Positions 31,119 to 41,811 of a stretch of 64,000 nt of DNA are shown here, in pieces. The first letter of the stretch is position 1, and each line of letters opens with the position of its first letter. Both the position numbers and the translations under genes were made by a program. A model generated the notes under the pieces. It was not told the DNA's origin. It saw nothing but the letters and a program-made list of their open reading frames with translations, and made no database searches. The stretch spans positions 1 through 64,000 of the forward strand of contig JAUXUD010000060.1 in assembly GCA_030680835.1 (NCBI GenBank), read 5' to 3'. This DNA comes from Bacteroidota bacterium. Its GTDB lineage: Bacteria; Bacteroidota; Bacteroidia; UKL13-3.

Positions 31119-31572
31119 GTCTAAGTATGCTTTGGTTTGGGGGAGGATTTTAAAATGTATTTGTTGAACCGAATCTGTTTAATTAGAGAATGGTTGCTTA
31201 TTAATAATTAATATAAATAAGGCAATGCAAATTGAAAAACGGGGTTTTATTTAAATGAAAAGGAGTAATATTGGATAAGGAAATAACTATAGTAGTAGCT
31301 AATAGCTAATTTAAGGGAGTTGGATTGGACCTTATTGTAGGTGGTATAAAAGAGTTGGCGGCAATTTTAAGGTATTCATATGGTTTGACAATCATAAAAG
31401 ACGAGTGATAAAATAAAGCATTTAGGATTTTAATTTGTGGGCCATCCAAATTAACTTTGTGGGCCGAAAAAATCAACTGTTGGGTTGGGTAGTAGTCTGA
31501 CTCAACGAAACAGAAATCAGTGGTTGTTAAACAAAATGGAAGTATGTCAATAATCTTAAAATCAGCTATAAA
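31119..31572. other. Gene-free stretch at the left edge of the accessory island
   Basis: This 454-bp AT-rich stretch shows no convincing reading frame or RNA gene. It holds a 10-bp direct repeat, TTTGTGGGCC, at 31434-31443 and 31456-31465. The second copy overlaps a perfect -7 box, TAACTTTG (31452-31459), which could start the herA transcript about 110 nt upstream of its ATG. No -33 TTG stands at the right distance, so the promoter call is tentative. Confidence 0.4.
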
Positions 31573-33687
31573 ATGAGTGATGTTCTAAATCAAATAGTCG
31601 CATCTGAAAGTGAGTTAGTTAACTTACTTGGCACATATAATACTTCATTTGTGGGTTATGTTTATGGCATGAGCTTCGACGAAGCTCTTGTTCTTACGAA
31701 TGATGATTGGAAACATAGCGTTAACGGCATTCCACATAATTCCTTTCTTGTTGCTGCAGGTTTCAATCCAGAACGATTAGCAGATGCAGCAGAAATAGAT
31801 AAAGAAGTTGTGTTATTACGTGTTTTAGAACCTGTGACTCTTCCCCAAGATAATGACCTTATAAAAACACGGATTGAACACCACCAAAGACGTACAATAG
31901 AAGAGCAATTCCCTGGTGATGTTAATGATGGGCTTGATCCAATAACTGCTGCTGAGTTACAATCAGGCGGACTACGTTGTAGAATTCTTGGAACTTTTTA
32001 TTTGGAAAATGATGAATTAAGACTGGGAAGCGATATTGAAAATTTCATGACCTTATCAAGAATGAGGGCATATAAACCTACGGAAGCGGCTCTCTCCCTA
32101 ATTGTAAATCATGTCAACCCTGAAGTAAGGAGAAAAGCTTTAGAAGAAGCTACAAATGCAGGATTTTTACAAGCCCCTTCTCCAATAAATATTGGTACAA
32201 TAAGATATACGTCAACTGCAAGAATGCACAGGGGAACAGCTCCCTTGGTGGCTGTTTTCATTCAGCCTACAGATTTCCTTGCTCGACGTACTGCTGTTTT
32301 GGGAATGACAAGAACAGGAAAATCGAACACTGTAAAAACTACAGTTTCAGCAGTTGCAGTAGCTGCTTTAAAAGACAACATTAGAATAGGTCAATTGATT
32401 TTTGACGTAAATGGTGAATATGCCAATGCAAATCATCAAGATGATGGAAGTTCAATTGCTGAAGTGTTTCCAACACAAACTATCCGATATCGTGCTTTGG
32501 AAACTGTAGGATTTGAAGATATCCGCCCAAATTTTTATATTGAATGTGCTCAAGCACTCAATTTAATCCAAGCTTTATTCAAGAATGATAATTCACCTTT
32601 TAGTGGTCAAGATTTAGACGCTTTCATGTCGACAAGCTTAGATGAGCCAGATATAACGGAAAGAGCTGATCACATACGTTGGCAAAGACACAAATCAGTT
32701 TTTCAATGTATTTTATTTCGTGCTGCATATCCAGTTCCTACAGGGTTAATAATCGACATTCCTATTGCTGAAGCCCTACTAGTACAAATTAGAAACTGGG
32801 CTCAGGTACAACAACCAGTGGTTAATATTAACATCCCTGCAAACGCTCGGGTTACTCCTAGCGAAGCATGTGCATGGTTTGAACAATTACGATTAATAAA
32901 TATTTCTTTAAAAGAGCAACAGCATAGAAATAATACTCCTCAAATAGGACTTGTGTCTTCCACAAGAGGTTCATCTTGGGTAGATCCTACACTTGAATCA
33001 TTATTAAATATGTTAGCTAGAGAAAATAGTCGAGGGCAATCATTCGGTGGGTGGAGAGCGATTCAAAAGTATAGACCTTATCATTCCCAACGTCGAAGGG
33101 CTGACATAACAAATGAAATAATTGCTCATTTGGATAACGGACGTATTGTGATCTTGGATTTATCCGTAGGTCCTGTAGAAATACGTGAAGTACTTTCAAA
33201 AAGAATTGCTTCTCGAATTTTCGATAGACAAATGGCGGATATGCATGCAGGCAGAGTTCCACAAAATATAGTTTTATATGTTGAGGAAGCTCACAATCTA
33301 ATTGGGAAGAAGGCTGATCTCACAGATACTTGGCCTAGAATTGCGAAGGAAGGTGCCAAAGCTAGAATTGCATTTGTTTATGCAACTCAAGAACCGTCCT
33401 CAGTTCATCCAAATATTTTGGCTAATACTGAAAACTGGTTTGTCACTCATTTAAACAATGATGATGAACTTAGGACGTTAGGCAAGTTCTATGATTTCAG
33501 TGACTTTATTGCTTCTTTGAAAGCTGCACAGGATGTAGGGTTCGCTAGAATAAAGACGCTATCATCTCCATTTGTTATACCAACTCAAATTAATAGATTT
33601 ACGCCTGATGATATCAGGAGACAAATAGAAGAAATTAATTCTAGAAGTGGGAATGTTCAAAGTCAGGAGGTTCCCAATGCCATATAA
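31573..33687 (+). CDS. HerA-like DNA translocase/ATPase (DUF87)
   Basis: A 704-residue HerA/FtsK-superfamily hexameric ATPase. An N-terminal barrel-like region (residues 1-225) precedes the ATPase core. Walker A is GMTRTGKSNTVK with Lys250 and Ser251; Walker B is VLYVEEAHNL with Glu571/Glu572 (usually D/E-E-A-H); an arginine-finger region ATQEPSSVH follows. The C-terminus has a PTQINRF block. HerA motors pump DNA into the NurA nuclease; a NurA-like gene overlaps its 3' end by 11 nt, so the pair should form one complex. Bacterial HerA-type ATPases with nuclease partners often act in phage defence; the nuclease-rich neighbourhood agrees. Confidence 0.9.
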   Translation: MSDVLNQIVASESELVNLLGTYNTSFVGYVYGMSFDEALVLTNDDWKHSVNGIPHNSFLVAAGFNPERLADAAEIDKEVVLLRVLEPVTLPQDNDLIKTRIEHHQRRTIEEQFPGDVNDGLDPITAAELQSGGLRCRILGTFYLENDELRLGSDIENFMTLSRMRAYKPTEAALSLIVNHVNPEVRRKALEEATNAGFLQAPSPINIGTIRYTSTARMHRGTAPLVAVFIQPTDFLARRTAVLGMTRTGKSNTVKTTVSAVAVAALKDNIRIGQLIFDVNGEYANANHQDDGSSIAEVFPTQTIRYRALETVGFEDIRPNFYIECAQALNLIQALFKNDNSPFSGQDLDAFMSTSLDEPDITERADHIRWQRHKSVFQCILFRAAYPVPTGLIIDIPIAEALLVQIRNWAQVQQPVVNINIPANARVTPSEACAWFEQLRLINISLKEQQHRNNTPQIGLVSSTRGSSWVDPTLESLLNMLARENSRGQSFGGWRAIQKYRPYHSQRRRADITNEIIAHLDNGRIVILDLSVGPVEIREVLSKRIASRIFDRQMADMHAGRVPQNIVLYVEEAHNLIGKKADLTDTWPRIAKEGAKARIAFVYATQEPSSVHPNILANTENWFVTHLNNDDELRTLGKFYDFSDFIASLKAAQDVGFARIKTLSSPFVIPTQINRFTPDDIRRQIEEINSRSGNVQSQEVPNAI

Positions 33688-35038
33688 TAGGGAAACAGCC
33701 GGTAAAGGAGGACATTCAGATTTCGTCCGAAATCCGGATATTCAGAACTTTCTTTCATCCTGTGAATATTTGAGACCTCCTTCAGATGATGAAGCAAGGG
33801 TCATTGCCTCTCAGTTTATTCAAGCACCTGAAGTCAATCCAGCAAGATTACCAAATTTTGTTGTTGCATCCGATGCAAGTAAGAACGACACACCTATCAA
33901 TGATAAGCTTCCTAGCACACAGATAGGGTTTGTTAAAGTGAGTCACGTGCTTATAGCGATGGATCGATATGCTGAACTTATTGATCCTGCTACAAGATTT
34001 GTTGATCCATTTAAAGCTGCTGCTTTGCACCGAAATGCTCAACCAGTAACATATGTGCTACCCGGAAGTAATATAAAGTACCGAGGGGCGGCAACAGTAA
34101 AGGATGGTTTCAGACTCGCAGTCTATGATCAATTTACAGTAAACCGTCGGGAGGGGACTAGTCGTTTAGTGCTTACAGAAACTCTTCTTTTACTAAATAA
34201 TAATAGGCTGACCATTTCTAAATGTCCCTCTTGTTCTTCTCAAATCGATCTTGATTTTTCTTCACAGCAAACTTTAAGGGCATGTTCTAGGTGCGGGGTA
34301 AATGTATATGCAACAGATTGGCTAAGGCTACATGAGGGCATAAGCGACTTTGGAGATAATACAAGCGCAATGACAAGAATGATGAATGCTGTAGAACATC
34401 TTTTACTTGGAGCTTTTGTTTTGGAGCTTCTCAATAATAGCCCTGCAGCACTTAGTAGTATAGCGTTTATTATCGATGGGCCATTGGCACTATTTGGCGA
34501 ACCTGCAAAACTACACCAGCGCTTAATGTCACTTATTCATGAGGCAAATGCAAGAATGTCTACGTTGGGTTATGAACCTATTCTAATAATGGGACTTCAG
34601 AAAACAGGTAATGTAATGGATCATGCTCGATTGTTAGAGAAGTATCTTCCTAATGGTGTTATTAAAGTGATTGATGATGTATACAGACAAACTTATATAA
34701 CCGGATCAGATACGGTTTCTGAAAATTTTGGAAATGAGACTTATTACGGTCAAGATTTTCTTTTTAAAACAGAAAAGGGCAGAATTTTCAACTTTGCTTT
34801 ACCATATCCCTTTCCTGACAAGGGTTCAAATGGTGGGGATTTTGCTACTAGAAAAGTAATGTTACCGAATTATGGATCGTTAATTAAGCGTGCCTGTGAC
34901 TTAATCCGGTATTTTGAACTTGATCTTTATGATAATGCTATTGTTCCTGTTGCCTTGGCACATAGGCATGCATCTATAAGTCTTGTACCGGGAGGAAAAG
35001 TACTTGATTTGATTACTAGAGCAGGTCTAGCACGTTAA
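33677..35038 (+). CDS. NurA-domain nuclease with zinc ribbon
   Basis: A 453-residue protein. The NurA fold is marked by an acidic residue at the end of strand one (Asp66 in VVASDAS) and a second in FIIDGPLALFGEP (Asp267), plus a downstream LIMGLQKTG strand. Between them lies a CxxC-(16)-CxxC zinc ribbon (Cys183, 186, 203, 206), not part of the minimal archaeal NurA. I start at ATG 33677, preceded by an AGGAGG-like sequence, giving an 11-nt overlap with herA. NurA is a 5'-3' nuclease working inside a HerA ring during end resection. Confidence in the nuclease call rests on the motifs plus the herA overlap. Confidence 0.82.
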   Translation: MPYNRETAGKGGHSDFVRNPDIQNFLSSCEYLRPPSDDEARVIASQFIQAPEVNPARLPNFVVASDASKNDTPINDKLPSTQIGFVKVSHVLIAMDRYAELIDPATRFVDPFKAAALHRNAQPVTYVLPGSNIKYRGAATVKDGFRLAVYDQFTVNRREGTSRLVLTETLLLLNNNRLTISKCPSCSSQIDLDFSSQQTLRACSRCGVNVYATDWLRLHEGISDFGDNTSAMTRMMNAVEHLLLGAFVLELLNNSPAALSSIAFIIDGPLALFGEPAKLHQRLMSLIHEANARMSTLGYEPILIMGLQKTGNVMDHARLLEKYLPNGVIKVIDDVYRQTYITGSDTVSENFGNETYYGQDFLFKTEKGRIFNFALPYPFPDKGSNGGDFATRKVMLPNYGSLIKRACDLIRYFELDLYDNAIVPVALAHRHASISLVPGGKVLDLITRAGLAR

Positions 35039-35081
35039 AAAAAATGTGTTAATTTTGTAAAAAGATTATGGCAAAAAAATT

Positions 35082-35975
35082 ATGAATGCAACCCCGTTAA
35101 GATATCCCGGTGGAAAATCTATTATGTCACCATTTTTTGAGAAACTAATAAAGCTCAATTCACTTAAAAATGTGATATACTCAGAGCCTTATGCTGGTGG
35201 AGCTGGTGCTGCTATCAATTTATTACTTAATAATAGCGTCGAAGCAATTCAGATTAATGATGCTTCTAGAGGTATTTTTTCCTTTTGGGATTCTTTGATA
35301 AATGAAGGGGAAAAATTTTTAGATAAGGTTTACAAGACCGATGTTACCTTAAAGGAGTGGCAATCTCAAAGATTAATTTTCAAAAATCCCACATCTGCAA
35401 GTTTTGATTTGGCATTTGCAACTTTTTTTCTTTCGAGGACGAATCGTTCTGGAATACTTGCTGCAGGACCAATTGGTGGGCAAGACGAAAAAAATCAACA
35501 AATTGCTAAATATAAAATTGATTGCAGATTTAATAAAATTGAGTTGATAGAACGACTCCAAAAAATTATCGATAAGAGAGACAAGATATTTGTTTCAAAT
35601 TTAGACGCATTAGTTTTTCTAAAGCAAATAAGGAGCGAGAATGCTTTTGTATATTTAGATCCACCTTATTACGCTCAAGGTAAAGCACTTTATTTAAATT
35701 ATTACCATCATGAAGATCATGTGATGCTTGCAAATTTCCTAAGATATTCTGCAAACTTTAATTGGGTGTTATCATATGATAGTGTGCCGGAAATCTTAGA
35801 ATTATATTCAGACTTTCCACTTTTTGAGTTTGTACTAAATTATTCGGCGCAAGACTCAAAAAAAGGAACAGAATTACTCACTCATTCCTCAAGAATATCT
35901 TTTCATTCTATTACGTCAATAAAAAAACAAGTAGAAATGGGGATGTTGCGCTCCATGGAATTTGAAAATATTTAA
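35082..35975 (+). CDS. D12-class (Dam-type) DNA adenine methyltransferase
   Basis: A 297-residue N6-adenine methyltransferase. It has the Dam N-terminal motif RYPGGKS, the SAM-binding motif EPYAGGAGAA (Pro36-Gly40) and the catalytic DPPYY (Asp193-Tyr196). A variable target-recognition region lies between (about residues 75-165). The motif IND at 64-66 is kept in a changed context (INDASRGI). It is 43 nt downstream of the nurA gene on the same strand. In a defence setting the methylase would mark self DNA, with HerA-NurA as the restricting arm. A stand-alone methylase is the alternative. Confidence 0.9.
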   Translation: MNATPLRYPGGKSIMSPFFEKLIKLNSLKNVIYSEPYAGGAGAAINLLLNNSVEAIQINDASRGIFSFWDSLINEGEKFLDKVYKTDVTLKEWQSQRLIFKNPTSASFDLAFATFFLSRTNRSGILAAGPIGGQDEKNQQIAKYKIDCRFNKIELIERLQKIIDKRDKIFVSNLDALVFLKQIRSENAFVYLDPPYYAQGKALYLNYYHHEDHVMLANFLRYSANFNWVLSYDSVPEILELYSDFPLFEFVLNYSAQDSKKGTELLTHSSRISFHSITSIKKQVEMGMLRSMEFENI

Positions 35976-36195
35976 ACCTTTTATTGTATTGGTACATCGT
36001 TGAAATTTTAATGGTTTATCCTTCTTGGTGAATATTCAGTACTTATGAACCCCTGACGGTTGGAAAGTTTTGAGGTTTTGGGATACCGAAGTCCATAAAA
36101 ATATACGATATTGCATAACAAAAATTGAGCGAACCATTAAGACAAGAAAAAATGGCTACTATCCCTAACGCAACACGACTCGCAGCCTAATACAT

Positions 36196-36969
36196 ATGAA
36201 AGAAGGGCAAAAACTCTGGACAAGAGGAGAATTAATATTAGCAATAAATCTTTACTGTAAACTTCCATTTGGAAGATTACATAGTAGAAACCTGGAAGTG
36301 ATAAATCTTGCAAATTTAATTGGAAGAACCGCAAACTCTGTTGCATTCAAACTTGTAAATTTTGCAAGCCTTGATCCAAGCCTTAAAGCAAGGGGAATTA
36401 AAGGAGCTTCAAACGCCAGTAATCTTGATAAAGAAATTTGGAATGAGTTTTTCAATCATTGGGATGAATTACCTTTTGAAAGCGAAAAGCTTCTCGCCAA
36501 AATTGAAAAAACAACCGTAGAAAAATTAAATCATATTCCCGAAAACGAATTGCCAAAAGAAGGAAAGACTAGAGAACAAATAGTAAAAATCAGGGTTAAT
36601 CAGTCATTCTTCAGAAGTTCCATTTTAGCTTCTTATAATGATACCTGCTGCATTACTGGGATTCAACAATCAGAGTTTTTAATTGCCGGTCATATTAAAC
36701 CGTGGGGAATTGATGAAAAGAATAGATTAAATCCGAGAAACGGAATTGCAATTAATGCACTACACGATAAAGCATTTGAAACTGGGCTACTTACTATTAC
36801 AACTGATTTCAAAATCAAAATTTCTTCTGTTTTAAAAAAACAAAATAAAATCCCATCAGTTCAAGATTTTTTTCTGAAATATGAAAATCAATCTATGATT
36901 CTACCTTCAAGATTTTTACCTGACATTGAGTTTCTAAATTATCATAATAATGAAAAATTTAAGCCATAA
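36196..36969 (+). CDS. HNH endonuclease (HNH_2 type)
   Basis: A 257-residue protein. The N-terminal 90 residues resemble a SANT/Myb-like or wHTH DNA-binding head (WTRGELILAINLY, LANLIGRTANSVAFKL). The C-terminal nuclease has CCITGIQQSEFLIAGHIKPW, then LNPRNGIAINALHDKAFE, giving His-Asn-His. Such proteins are annotated as putative restriction endonucleases. It overlaps the next small gene by 20 nt. A 220-bp spacer separates it from the methylase, so it is probably a separate unit in the island. Confidence 0.88.
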   Translation: MKEGQKLWTRGELILAINLYCKLPFGRLHSRNLEVINLANLIGRTANSVAFKLVNFASLDPSLKARGIKGASNASNLDKEIWNEFFNHWDELPFESEKLLAKIEKTTVEKLNHIPENELPKEGKTREQIVKIRVNQSFFRSSILASYNDTCCITGIQQSEFLIAGHIKPWGIDEKNRLNPRNGIAINALHDKAFETGLLTITTDFKIKISSVLKKQNKIPSVQDFFLKYENQSMILPSRFLPDIEFLNYHNNEKFKP

Positions 36970-37300
36970 CATAAAATTTAATTACCTCTATCGTGATGCA
37001 GGGAATTATAAAATTTTCGGCTCTGTAATTTTTGAAAACCCTGATAATATTTCTCTTTCAGAAATTGAAACAAATATCAAACAATGTTTAATTTATAGAG
37101 AATTCTTTGACCCAATTAAATTGAATATACCCCAATTAGCGTTTGCAGAAATTGATGAAGAAGTTGACCATAATTGGAATGAGTTTCAAAGTATTGAATT
37201 AACATTAGAATCAATAACTGATAAAAGAGCTATCAATTATTTCCTAAAAGAAATGGAATTATTCCAAAACAATTTGAAGCAACGGCAGAAGATAAATTGA
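36950..37300 (+). CDS. Hypothetical small acidic partner of the HNH protein
   Basis: A 116-residue cytoplasmic protein whose start overlaps the HNH gene by 20 nt. It carries features of a recurrent uncharacterised family: FNYLYRDAGNYKIFGSVIF at the N-terminus, ISLSEIETNIKQCLI, then REFFDP and VDHNWNEFQSIELT. I recall similar proteins in defence and toxin-antitoxin-rich regions but no function. The overlap suggests it is made together with the nuclease and could modulate it. Confidence 0.75.
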   Translation: MKNLSHNIKFNYLYRDAGNYKIFGSVIFENPDNISLSEIETNIKQCLIYREFFDPIKLNIPQLAFAEIDEEVDHNWNEFQSIELTLESITDKRAINYFLKEMELFQNNLKQRQKIN

Positions 37301-37456
37301 TGCACTGTTTCATTGGTTTTTTGAAATCACTCAAGTTGGAATTTCAAACAGCTATGGACCTTGCAACCAATTCACGAAATTGTTACAACGGAGCATAAAA
37401 TCAAAAAAAGGCAATTCAAGTATCATTTTTAATTAAATTTATTAAAAAATATTATA

Positions 37457-37675
37457 ATGGAAGCCATACGATATATAATAACACCGCGAACAACGAACTT
37501 ACAAATCATTTTACCAGAAAGTTTGGTAGATAAAAAATTAGAACTCATCATTTTGACTTTTGATGAAAACAAGGAGAATGGTAAAGCAAAACGCATTCCC
37601 GGAGCTTTAAAAGGTAAAGTTTCCATTCCGGATGATTTTAATGAGCCATTGGAAGATCTAAACGATTTAATGTAA
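37457..37675 (+). CDS. DUF2281-like antitoxin, without a visible toxin
   Basis: A 72-residue protein with an N-terminal beta strand region (NLQIILPESLVDKKLELIIL) and the C-terminal motif ALKGKVSIPDDFNEPLEDL, typical of short VapB-like antitoxins. These are normally followed by a PIN-domain toxin. Here the next 230 bp hold no toxin frame, only a 28-bp scrap (37714-37741) matching the end of the membrane-protein gene at 40983-41010. It appears to be an orphan left by a rearrangement. Confidence 0.8.
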   Translation: MEAIRYIITPRTTNLQIILPESLVDKKLELIILTFDENKENGKAKRIPGALKGKVSIPDDFNEPLEDLNDLM

Positions 37676-37850
37676 TGATGCAATTCGCCAACAAAACGAA
37701 ATTGTTCTATATTATATCAAAACGTGATTCATTGTAAATCTGGGAGCTCAAACGGCCAAAATAATTGGAACCGAAACGTTATGCCCTACACTTTCACTCG
37801 CATCTCATCAATTATCAAGAACATATTGACTGAATTTAACAATTAATAAG

Positions 37851-37882
37851 TTGAAATTGAGTGTAAATAAAATGTACATTTG
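37851..37882 (+). promoter_or_regulatory. Bacteroidota-type promoter of the SRA-HNH gene
   Basis: TTG (37851-37853), 21 nt, then a perfect TACATTTG (37875-37882), 26 nt before the TTG start at 37909. This supports independent transcription of the nuclease gene. Confidence 0.7.
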
Positions 37883-37908
37883 CCTTTAATATTCAAATTG
37901 TAAAAACT

Positions 37909-38811
37909 TTGATATTGGACAGAATACCTTTCATTCCAAACCAGATTTACAATCGTAGAAATGATATTCATGCCATTTATGGAGGTAACTGGCAGGGAGG
38001 AATTTGTCCTTCAGCATCATACCCATATATATTTATCTTCTCAGGAAAATCAGGACATCAACACGGATATAAAGATGGCTGGGATAACCCTAAGGTGTTT
38101 ACTTATACAGGAGAAGGACAATTAGGCGACATGAAATTTACCAGAGGGAATCTTGCACTTAGAGATCACCTGCAAAATGGCAAAAGAGTATTTCTTTTTG
38201 AAAGTCACTCTAAAGGCTATGTGAAATTTATTGGAGAGATGGAGTGTTTTGATGCAGATTTCTTTGAAACACATGACACATCTGGAATAGCAAGAATAGG
38301 TATCAATTTCTTTTTCAAGCGTAAAGGGGCTTTTCTTTCTTATCAACCGGAAATGTATCAAATCCCTTCTATAGTTGAAGAGCCTGAATCTGAATATGGA
38401 ATTATATTTCAAAATGAAACCGAAAGAAAAGGATTAGTTACTTCTAGAGTTGGACAAGGCGCTTATAGAAAGCGAATTATTCATCGATGGGAATCTAAAT
38501 GTGCAGTTACCGGTTTCGATAAATTGGACATTTTAATTGCTTCACATATTTTGCCCTGGGCGGAGGCAGATGACAATCAAAGATTGGACGTTCATAATGG
38601 CATTTTGCTATCTCCAGCCTACGATGCATTGTTTGATCGACATTTAATAAGCTTTGAGAATACCGGCAAGATTATTTTATCTGATTCAATAGAAATTCAA
38701 GCATTTCAAAAAATTGGTATTACAGGTAAAGAAAAGATCAATAACTTAAGTTGTTACAATTTAGAATATTTGGATAAACATAGAATAAATTTTATTATTC
38801 AAAACCAATAA
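37909..38811 (+). CDS. HNH endonuclease with SRA-like N-terminal domain (modification-dependent restriction type)
   Basis: A 300-residue protein, TTG start. Residues 15-130 have SRA (YDG)-like blocks: IYGGNWQGGICPS, YKDGWDNPKVFTYTGEGQ in parts, GDMKFTRGNLALRDH and KRVFLFE, as in McrA-type enzymes that read methylated or phosphorothioated DNA. Residues 180-275 hold the HNH: YRKRIIHRWESKCAVTGF, ILIASHILPW, LDVHNGILLSPAYDALFD. A modified-base-dependent restriction role is inferred from this architecture. It has its own promoter, and a lipoprotein gene follows after 10 nt. Confidence 0.88.
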   Translation: MILDRIPFIPNQIYNRRNDIHAIYGGNWQGGICPSASYPYIFIFSGKSGHQHGYKDGWDNPKVFTYTGEGQLGDMKFTRGNLALRDHLQNGKRVFLFESHSKGYVKFIGEMECFDADFFETHDTSGIARIGINFFFKRKGAFLSYQPEMYQIPSIVEEPESEYGIIFQNETERKGLVTSRVGQGAYRKRIIHRWESKCAVTGFDKLDILIASHILPWAEADDNQRLDVHNGILLSPAYDALFDRHLISFENTGKIILSDSIEIQAFQKIGITGKEKINNLSCYNLEYLDKHRINFIIQNQ

Positions 38812-38821
38812 GAGCAAGGCA

Positions 38822-39175
38822 ATGAAATTCAAAATATTATTTTTGGCCACTGTTTTAGTATTATCATGCAGTAAACAAGAATCAAAAAGCGATTTAAATA
38901 TTCAAATTAGAACAACAGTACTACCTGCTTATGTAATACTTTATAAGAATAACGCTTTTTATGATAGTATTAACTTTCAAATTGATGGTTCAATTGGGTT
39001 CTGGGACATTGAAGTTCCATTAAATACGAGCTATTCTCTTGAGGTTAGAAAAATCAACATTAAGGATACAGGAGCTGTTGATATAAAATGGTTTAAATCG
39101 GCAAATTTGGCTCAGCATGACTATATAAAATTAGATTCCATCAGTTTGAAGAAGTCGTTTTTTTTTAAAATGTAA
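38822..39175 (+). CDS. Small hypothetical lipoprotein
   Basis: A 117-residue lipoprotein: signal peptide and lipobox LVLSC at residues 12-16, then a single beta-rich domain (DLNIQIRTTVLPAYVILYKN, GFWDIEVPLNTSYSLEV). No family recognised. Its first 63 bp are repeated almost exactly at 41812-41874 as a truncated copy. Confidence 0.7.
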   Translation: MKFKILFLATVLVLSCSKQESKSDLNIQIRTTVLPAYVILYKNNAFYDSINFQIDGSIGFWDIEVPLNTSYSLEVRKINIKDTGAVDIKWFKSANLAQHDYIKLDSISLKKSFFFKM

Positions 39176-39218
39176 AAAGGAAATCATATTTACATGGTGC
39201 AGCCATCCTTAAAGGTAA

Positions 39219-40378
<1,160 letters not shown>

Positions 40379-40454
40379 TAATGCCTTAGCCGCATTATGA
40401 ATTGAATCAAAAAATTCAAAAAAGCTGGTTTTTATTTAATTTAAACAGAAAAAT

Positions 40455-41030
40455 ATGAGAACAGAAAAAGTTTTGACAATTTTATTCCTAGTAGGACTTT
40501 TATTCAAAGTTCTACATTGGATTGGTGCAAGTCAAATACTCGCAATTTCCCTAATGACAATTGCAATGCTATATTTTCCAGCAGCATTTTATTTCTTTTG
40601 TGACAAAGTTATTAAACGGCAAAACATTGCCTTATCAATTGTCTCAGGTCTTTTCCTTTCATTAATTCCTTTAGGCATTCTTTTTAAAATTATGTACTGG
40701 CGGGGTGGACAAGTTTACCTATTAACCGGCTTAGTGACTGCACCAATCATTTTAGCAGTTATTTATTTTCTTAAATCCAAAACGGCTGACGAATTGAAAA
40801 CATATTATAGAAATATGTTTTTACGAACAAGTATCTTGACCGCATTGGCATTCCTTTTTTATTTAACTCCGACTTCAACGCTATTAGAAATACAGTATTT
40901 CAGAGACCCTGAATTAGCAAGATTAAAAACGCTGCATTACACATATCCTGACAATTATGAATATAAAAAACAACATGATGATTATATATCAAAACGTGAT
41001 TCAATGTATATCTACCTCAACAAGCAGTGA
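40455..41030 (+). CDS. Hypothetical integral membrane protein (two GldL-like motifs)
   Basis: A 191-residue protein with about five predicted membrane segments. Two motifs, LLFKVLHWIGAS (residue about 15) and ILFKIMYWRGGQ (about 75), resemble the FKxxHWPGA signature of GldL-type and related Bacteroidota membrane proteins. The C-terminal 45 residues are soluble and Tyr/Lys-rich. No function is assigned. A 28-bp piece of its 3' end occurs at 37714-37741, so a related copy once lay there. Confidence 0.65.
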   Translation: MRTEKVLTILFLVGLLFKVLHWIGASQILAISLMTIAMLYFPAAFYFFCDKVIKRQNIALSIVSGLFLSLIPLGILFKIMYWRGGQVYLLTGLVTAPIILAVIYFLKSKTADELKTYYRNMFLRTSILTALAFLFYLTPTSTLLEIQYFRDPELARLKTLHYTYPDNYEYKKQHDDYISKRDSMYIYLNKQ

Positions 41031-41060
41031 CCACTATGCTTACAATAATCTGCAATAAAA

Positions 41061-41591
41061 ATGAATCCCAATTTCCCAAAAACTAAATTCTACAAGGAAC
41101 TCGAATCTTCCCTCCCTGCAAGCACTGCAGAAAAAAGGAAAATATGGGCAACTACAATTATAGAAAAGGACATAGATATAAAATACCTTTCCGAATTGTT
41201 AAGGGGTGAACAGAAAATTGCGATTCGGTTTCTATGGCTCCTGAGTGAGATTGGAACATTAAATCCAAATAGGTTATTGATTGAACTTCCCTTTTTATTG
41301 GATTTATGTGATCAGCTCAACCCTATTTACAAAAGGTCCTTTGCCAATTTCTGGCTTATTGCAGGCGTACCCATCGAAAATGAAGGCCGGGCCACCGACT
41401 TATTGTTTCAATGGCTGCTGTCGGCTGATACAAATGTCACAATCAAATCAAGGTCGCTCCGGGTGCTGTTCAAACTCACAAAAAAATATCCTGAACTAAA
41501 AAATGAGCTAAAACTTTGTTTACAGGATCAGATGGACAAACACTCAAATGACTTTAAAAAAAGAGCAAGCAAAATATTGAGTGGACTATGA
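41061..41591 (+). CDS. Hypothetical HEAT-like helical protein
   Basis: A 176-residue all-helical cytoplasmic protein with repeated helix pairs (YLSELLRGEQKIAIRFLWLL, ELPFLLDLCDQL, FANFWLIAGVPI, SRSLRVLFKLTKKYP), as in HEAT or Armadillo-type adaptors. No catalytic motif is seen. It is the last intact gene before the large reverse-strand T9SS gene. Confidence 0.65.
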   Translation: MNPNFPKTKFYKELESSLPASTAEKRKIWATTIIEKDIDIKYLSELLRGEQKIAIRFLWLLSEIGTLNPNRLLIELPFLLDLCDQLNPIYKRSFANFWLIAGVPIENEGRATDLLFQWLLSADTNVTIKSRSLRVLFKLTKKYPELKNELKLCLQDQMDKHSNDFKKRASKILSGL

Positions 41592-41811
41592 TTTATATTA
41601 TTACCCTGAATTAAATAGGAGTCGAAACAAAACAAAAATGGAAAACCGGCAAACATTTAATTTTTATCGGGTTATAAATTCCTATGAAGTGGAATATTTG
41701 CCAGGGATTCTCAATTAAATCTTCGAAATCGTTTTTCCTGCATTATTGAAAAGTCAATTTATCATTAATATAATAGTTTCATTTTTAGGAAGGAAATTAT
41801 TCATTTGGTCA

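Follow-up and report, generated by a model that had tools for sequence, protein, structure and literature searches.

What might a HerA-type DNA translocase, a NurA-like nuclease, and a DNA methylase accomplish together when their genes follow one another on one strand? The question is raised by a cassette in a 64,000-nucleotide stretch from a Bacteroidota bacterium (contig JAUXUD010000060.1, positions 1 to 64,000; hereafter the window), for which a sequence-only reading had proposed a compact restriction system, with a methylase that marks self DNA and a HerA-NurA pair that degrades DNA lacking the mark. Comparative and structural analyses partly support this interpretation, which is strengthened by linkage of the genes across relatives, by conserved residues, and by the absence of the trio among named systems. 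A distinct branch of NurA nucleases, similar to TdpB, regularly has the methylase as its partner. Tdp is the phosphorothioate system of Thermus, in which TdpC marks self DNA and TdpAB forms the restriction half, and we consider it probable that the cassette is a modification-restriction module and the methyl counterpart of TdpAB.

Linkage of the methylase to a distinct NurA branch

Relatives of the cassette were drawn from plasmids, phages, 84,980 species genomes, 395 genomes of the phylum, and viral contigs. The species genomes were represented by the best 80 of 88 relatives and searched with one DGPLA-type pattern, so that members lacking the pattern are under-sampled; the viral contigs contributed two loci, and L184 stands outside the counts. 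Removal of duplicate or superseded entries (L001, L019, L080, L089-L100, and L104) gave 97 non-redundant loci, of which 76 were judgeable, having a HerA of at least 400 aa and 1.5 kb of sequence on both sides. A DNA methylase lies within 3 kb in 68 of these 76, and in 65 of the 68 at least one methylase is on the same strand; the adjacency noticed in the window is thus conserved among its relatives. The 21 loci set aside for short flanks or want of a 400-aa HerA divide into 13 with a nearby methylase and 8 without, giving 81 of 97 overall. The family spans 19 phylum-level groups by record labels, archaea included, and besides methylases no neighbour BLAST cluster occurs in more than 11 loci.

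Chance adjacency was ruled out by two controls. Upstream, a methylase is found within 2.5 kb in 45/65 loci versus 3/65 at 2.5-5.4 kb, and downstream the corresponding figures are 17/70 and 3/70. Around classical NurA genes, a methylase lies within 3 kb in 1 of 24 loci, with HerA nearby in 17; these control loci comprise 20 of 50 listed places, two more from the genome of L018, and one each from those of L059 and L038. The methylase profiles were built from the family's own neighbours plus one HsdM, so that methylases of other kinds would escape notice equally in the family and in the control. The 76 loci are not all independent, since L002/L018, L023/L024/L025, L109/L110, and L057/L105 are near-identical.

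These counts bear on an alternative that we regard as improbable, namely, that an orphan or phage-derived methylase merely travels with HerA-NurA, which would attack DNA ends irrespective of methylation, as a nuclease of defence or of repair. Such uncoupling would fit the phage records, where 43 match the methylase and 2 the nuclease, so that related D12 methylases occur in phages without the nuclease, and it would also fit the family loci that have no methylase and the complex of Thermococcus kodakarensis, for which the excerpt describes DNA degradation and mentions no mark (PMC12977600; papers are cited here from excerpts of their text). However, 68/76 loci versus 1/24 classical ones is beyond chance or hitch-hiking, different methylase families occupy the same place, and the larger of two methylase sets described below is co-inherited with its partners (rho 0.80, reached in 0 of 500 permutations).

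The eight judgeable loci without a methylase within 3 kb are five from Nostocales, Helicobacter L074, L009, and L103. Three of the five Nostocales loci are on plasmid records, and there HerA-NurA lies behind an 82-aa gene (an HTH_3 regulator in L003). In L103 (5941-14771), a type I restriction-modification (R-M) operon of HsdR, HsdM, and HsdS starts 40 bp after NurA.

Several arrangements elsewhere in the family deserve mention in their own right. A nine-locus Bacteroidota clade (L044, L054, L056, L057, L058, L060, L062, L086, and L105) has the methylase, HerA, and NurA genes in that order, and immediately after them come two genes from a single BLAST cluster, of which the first is split in L058; in L056 these genes match the Septu models PtuA (2.1e-207) and PtuB (5.2e-102). 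The arrangement is a composite of two defence systems, in which Septu may be a backup effector, and the presence of Septu-like genes directly after the trio speaks for the restriction reading. In Deferribacter (L005:4141-7939), the HerA gene is broken by an IS200/IS605 element with TnpB, and in Methanosarcina (L081) an opposite-strand gene lies between two HerA pieces.

The motor, the nuclease, and the methylase

In the window, herA, the nurA-like gene, and the D12 methylase gene lie on one strand, with the 11-nt herA/nurA overlap and the 43-nt gap before the methylase gene that had been read from the open reading frames (ORFs). The nurA-like start is taken as the ATG at 33677, and an alternative GTG start at 33647 is likewise open. 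The features are as follows.

31391..31572, + strand: upstream leader, within DNA common to the Mariniphaga locus L008 (blastn and edge alignment)
31573..33687, + strand: herA, HerA/FtsK-type DNA translocase, TdpA-like, 704 aa (Pfam, PADLOC, PDB, Foldseek)
32302..32325, + strand: Walker A of HerA, GMTRTGKS, including K250 (motif and family alignment)
33283..33294, + strand: Walker B of HerA, EEAH, residues 571-574 (motif and family alignment)
33677..35038, + strand: nurA-like nuclease gene, predicted TdpB-like NurA fold, 453 aa (model, Foldseek, VIA-align)
33872, 34394, and 34475, + strand: nuclease carboxylates D66, E240, and D267, respectively (family alignment)
34223..34294, + strand: CxxC...CxxC zinc ribbon inserted in the nuclease, C183-C206 (conservation; weak Pfam Zn-ribbon matches below cut-off)
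35082..35975, + strand: D12-class adenine-N6 DNA methyltransferase, 297 aa (Pfam, PADLOC)
35658-35669, + strand: methylase DPPY motif, residues 193-196 (motif position)

The motor is recognized as HerA by Pfam (DUF87/HerA, 1.9e-13) and PADLOC (1.4e-22). Its Walker A lysine (Lys250) and Walker B EEAH, noted at the outset, are intact, and G244, G249, K250, S251, E571, E572, and H574 are invariant in 79/79 aligned family HerAs. TdpA is both the top PDB sequence match (phmmer 1.3e-23; next 1.1e-11) and the top Foldseek match (4.0e-29; next family 1.3e-20) of a structure model built from 35 sequences (pLDDT 82.4, pTM 0.79). A query with a TdpA fragment returned family HerAs on Deferribacter, Tolypothrix, Nostoc, and Calothrix plasmids among the matches listed (25 of 482 records). 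Membership in MADS (mad1 to mad8) was also considered; the ten window ORFs scanned with PADLOC yield one weak mad8 match, in HerA (6.2e-10), and the mad1-mad8 set is absent from them.

The window nuclease has no match to the Pfam NurA model PF09376 at E up to 1, and its relative in L003, at 20.7 bits, falls short of the cut-off of 21. A PDB sequence search gave no match, and a profile search gave two at E 0.78 and 0.88 that are not credible. The AlphaFold model, built from 51 sequences (pLDDT 87.0, pTM 0.86), places TdpB first in Foldseek against the PDB (8wfd_G, 6.9e-12), followed by NurA of Deinococcus radiodurans (4.7e-6) and Sulfolobus solfataricus (6.2e-6). In VIA-align, the Z score is 20.9 for TdpB (310 residues) and 10.5-14.8 for nine other NurA-type entries, with unrelated rows at 8.6 or below. 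Judged from the modelled fold, the nuclease is a NurA. Its active-site carboxylates are kept across full-length members (D66 in 89/89, E240 in 88/89, and D267 in 88/89). The extra CxxC-CxxC zinc ribbon that had been singled out is likewise a family trait, its cysteines (C183, C186, C203, and C206) being present in 63/63 members of one main clade and in 18 to 24 of the 26 in the window's clade. Near the C-terminal motif, residue 429 (34961-34963) is His in all but one of the window's clade (25/26) and Asn throughout the other clade (63/63), a switch that may point to catalysis differing between the two. The nuclease gene is single-copy in the window's genome.

The methylase matches Pfam MethyltransfD12 (2.9e-15) and is the sole PF02086 match in the 4.3-Mb genome; in PADLOC it matches PD-Lambda-5_B (PDLC04018, 3.1e-103) and MTase_II (1.3e-84). 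Of the earlier D12/Dam-type assignment, the D12 class stands and Dam does not, since the score against the Dam model TIGR00571 is 53.7 bits, under the cut-off of 114.85. In Citrobacter phage phiNP (L185:2122-4804), a relative of the methylase that is itself without annotation lies beside a gene annotated as an AAA ATPase.

Transfer, methylase exchange, and co-inheritance

The trio moves as a unit, because a 17-kb Mariniphaga sequence (L008) aligned by blastn to the window in a single 4.6-kb match (31391-35975, 87.4% identity) that begins in the leader and stops at the methylase stop codon, with unrelated flanks; at the edges, some tens more bases are alike past the blastn match. The distribution is patchy. 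Among 19 genomes of the genus, this HerA is found in the window's own only, with a partial match in G464 (E 3e-5), and the nuclease is present in 13/395 genomes of the phylum, its own included. Family members occur on plasmids and in prophages.

This distribution is relevant to a further alternative, that the cassette encodes a double-strand-break resection pair like classical HerA-NurA and that methylation guards replication or repair intermediates. The HerA and NurA folds agree with such a role, as does the resection reported for D. radiodurans NurA-HerA (PMC9960219). We nevertheless hold it very improbable, given the patchy occurrence of the genes, their presence on plasmids and in prophages, their movement as a cassette, and the lack of a PF09376 match in the window nuclease.

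Around the cassette, phosphate-uptake and phoU genes precede herA. A search for an empty site downstream of phoU in the sister genome G460 found that the phoU region aligns with no DNA match beyond it and so gave no clean empty site, and a promoter-like site at 31385-31414 is not claimed because its -35 part falls in an alignment gap in L008. Downstream, 36001-41800 is low in GC (32%), and 36196-40378 forms a separate part of the island. The nuclease-rich island described earlier is there insofar as two HNH_2 genes (36196 and 37909, of which one weakly matches SRA) and, at 39515, a candidate defence gene of the PDC-S14 kind that carries DUF4357 (Pfam and PADLOC) follow the cassette, but all of these lie outside the segment shared with Mariniphaga, and the HNH gene at 36196 was accordingly rejected as a cassette member.

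The methylases are of more than one kind. Those scanned among the neighbours belong to PF02086 (window, L016) or PF01555 (L002, L021, L045, and L106), and the cluster containing the PF01555 methylases mostly has an SPPF or SPPY motif, as N4-cytosine enzymes typically do. In the midpoint-rooted nuclease tree there are two clades with support of 100/100 each. The window's clade (26 members) has D12 methylases upstream, downstream, or on the opposite strand, and one branch with an N6/N4-type methylase downstream, and the other clade (64 members) mostly has an N6/N4-type methylase upstream. Judgeable loci have a methylase in 21/23 cases in the window's clade and 47/53 in the other, where L015 and L107, which are absent from the tree, were placed by hand in the window's clade. 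Six D12 neighbours are on the opposite strand.

Identities were compared within each methylase type. The D12 comparison covers 10 of 15 D12 loci, with L006, L010, L013, and L015 removed by length filters and L008 standing for the window, and two of the loci are doubtful: several genes intervene before the methylase of L088, whose upstream flank is short, and the nuclease of L112 has a very long branch. Across all 10 loci, the correlation of NurA with HerA identities is 0.92 (reached in 0/500 permutations) and that of NurA with methylase identities 0.41 (33/500). Leaving out both L088 and L112 gives 0.90 and 0.20 (112/500), and leaving out L088 alone gives 0.93 and 0.59 (18/500). In the latter set, the eight pairs with NurA identity of at least 0.5 average 0.58 for NurA, 0.62 for HerA, and 0.35 for the methylase. 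Within the window's branch, D12 methylases of 0.21-0.37 mutual identity lie beside HerA-NurA pairs of 0.59-0.71; leaving out the doubtful L088, the lowest methylase identities there are 0.30 to 0.37. In the N6/N4 set (40 loci), by comparison, both correlations are strong (NurA-HerA 0.93 and NurA-methylase 0.80; 0/500 permutations each), and the 168 pairs with NurA identity of at least 0.5 average 0.63 for the methylase, 0.56 for NurA, and 0.64 for HerA.

In the N6/N4 set, then, the methylase is inherited along with its HerA-NurA partners. For the D12 set, our reading of the sequence identities is that the methylases were probably replaced, rather than diverging fast, around HerA-NurA pairs that were kept. 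A localized hypervariable recognition region, as might accompany site switching, was looked for in the methylases, and no dip was seen among the close pairs listed; the D12 set shows differences over the whole enzyme instead.

The two patterns bear differently on the possibility that, as in BREX and type I/III systems, the methylase reads the sites for a single complex and beyond marking would bind unmodified sites and recruit or load HerA-NurA. We consider this rather unlikely but worth weighing. No general extra DNA-reading gene is seen, as no non-methylase cluster exceeds 11 loci, the N6/N4 methylase is as conserved as its partners and co-varies with NurA, and type I subunits adjoin HerA-NurA in L103, all of which would suit a site reader. 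The divergent D12 methylases beside well-conserved HerA-NurA pairs, and the six on the opposite strand, argue against it, since such divergence and placement are easier to accommodate for a free-standing writer of marks than for a fixed subunit.

A proposed mechanism and its relation to known systems

As a modification-restriction module, the cassette would work as follows. A HerA hexamer would close around double-stranded DNA and drive it into a docked NurA dimer, which would cut both strands as the DNA emerges from HerA. The methylase would mark resident DNA by sequence-specific methylation, and HerA-NurA would degrade incoming DNA that lacks this mark. Sensing could take one of two forms: the mark may stall translocation, or the nuclease, in the tunnel, as phosphorothioate on self DNA blocks the TdpAB HerA-NurA pair, or the methylase may itself be the site reader. 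Methylase exchange in the branch that holds the window somewhat favours the former, and co-inheritance in the larger N6/N4 set allows the latter, with the methylase guiding the engine. The gating half of the mechanism is drawn from Tdp and from gene linkage, and the pumping and cutting half from T. kodakarensis HerA-NurA, which cuts both strands of double-stranded DNA, requires the HerA ATPase, and loses its activity with D49A (PMC12977600). Restriction, methylation, and phage defence are predicted roles of the trio, for which we infer complex formation, DNA degradation, restraint by the mark, and protection against phages or plasmids. The wide recurrence of the pairing in bacteria and some archaea suggests that it probably represents a little-noticed means of destroying unmarked foreign DNA.

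Several observations weigh against a methyl-gated restriction module. Six judgeable loci have no recognized methylase nearby (L003, L004, L007, L031, L038, and L074), and L009 has one (N6/N4) at 3.3 kb only and on the other strand, which implies either that the system can do without a local methylase or that an unlinked one serves there. The weak correlation between NurA and the D12 methylase depends on the set chosen (0.41, 0.20, or 0.59). No separate target-recognition subunit accompanies the cassette, which leaves site reading without an explanation. Conservation of D267 is partly built in, because the search pattern behind L008-L087 contained the DGPLA motif, although D66 and E240 lie outside the pattern. 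The VIA-align Z scores of HerA are level for TdpA (30.0) and for the HerA of another complex (8xau, 30.4), so that the link to TdpA rests on sequence and Foldseek, Z being indecisive by itself. Finally, degradation by T. kodakarensis HerA-NurA is described without a methyl mark, the word "methyl" being absent from the paper's text (PMC12977600), and gating is therefore not readable from the fold.

More tentatively, and with somewhat less than even confidence, HerA-NurA may be a general restriction engine with plug-in self-markers, among them D12, N6/N4, and perhaps type I methylases as well as the sulphur chemistry of Thermus; such an engine would read no fixed sequence and would sense modification of the DNA threaded through it. 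If this were true, a class of R-M systems would be defined by its motor-nuclease and not by its methylase. Should the methyl-gated restriction engine itself prove right, marks of differing chemistry would be served by one motor-nuclease, and the genes that carry the annotation "DNA double-strand break repair nuclease NurA" or "DUF87 domain-containing protein" at these loci would belong to defence.

With respect to systems already described, searches of PADLOC, Pfam, NCBIfam, and the literature found the trio in no named defence system, which bears on a doubt that the sequence-only reading had left standing. In PADLOC, the nucleases of the window, L003, L005, and L056 are all unmatched. No description of the trio was found among the literature matches listed, most subscription papers and all preprints lying outside the search, so that an earlier report is possible. 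By word count, the surveys of HerA/FtsK defence systems concerned with Dnd and BREX (PMC10853773 and PMC12839542) do not contain the word NurA. Papers on Deinococcus N4-methylcytosine (m4C) and on integrative and conjugative elements (ICE) were rejected as precedents, as NurA appears in the reference lists only of two and the third has an ICE HerA beside an endonuclease.

Partial likenesses are nonetheless instructive. The window methylase matches the B model of PD-Lambda-5, an experimentally antiphage system (PMC9519451), at 3.1e-103, which speaks for a defence role, but none of the ten ORFs scanned matches PD-Lambda-5_A at E up to 0.01; membership was rejected, B alone being present with HerA-NurA as its partner here. 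HerA-SIR2 and HerA-DUF4297 likewise join HerA to an effector enzyme in antiviral complexes (PMC12977600), whereas the window effector is NurA-type and the module includes a methylase. Type I R-M, BREX, and BREX-related systems, as excerpted, share the combination of an ATP-driven DNA engine and a self-marking methylase; the engine in the window is instead HerA-NurA, and no HsdS, PglZ, or BrxC is among the Pfam matches of the scanned ORFs.

HerA-NurA is known as an archaeal end-resection machine, and the classical pairs of T. kodakarensis, S. solfataricus, and D. radiodurans have both folds and an operon-like pairing in common with the cassette, and in T. kodakarensis the active-site Asp is essential. 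They differ in that 23/24 classical loci are without a methylase of the profiled kinds within 3 kb and in that the window nuclease falls below PF09376 detection. The authors of the T. kodakarensis study consider a direct end-resection role unlikely and a defence enzyme possible (PMC12977600), a doubt to which the methylase-linked family gives concrete form.

The closest comparison is with TdpAB(C) of Thermus (PDB 8wet, 8wfd, and 8y1k). The likeness of the window nuclease to TdpB is undetectable in sequence and is one of fold only, and the window nuclease carries a zinc ribbon, TdpB having been compared by fold only. A domain scan of the window neighbours, made without a TdpC model, found no sulphur-transfer domain. 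Both systems combine a HerA-type translocase with a NurA-type nuclease, TdpA and TdpB are the best Foldseek matches of the window HerA and nuclease, and where TdpC phosphorothioation has its place in Thermus, the window locus has a DNA methylase.

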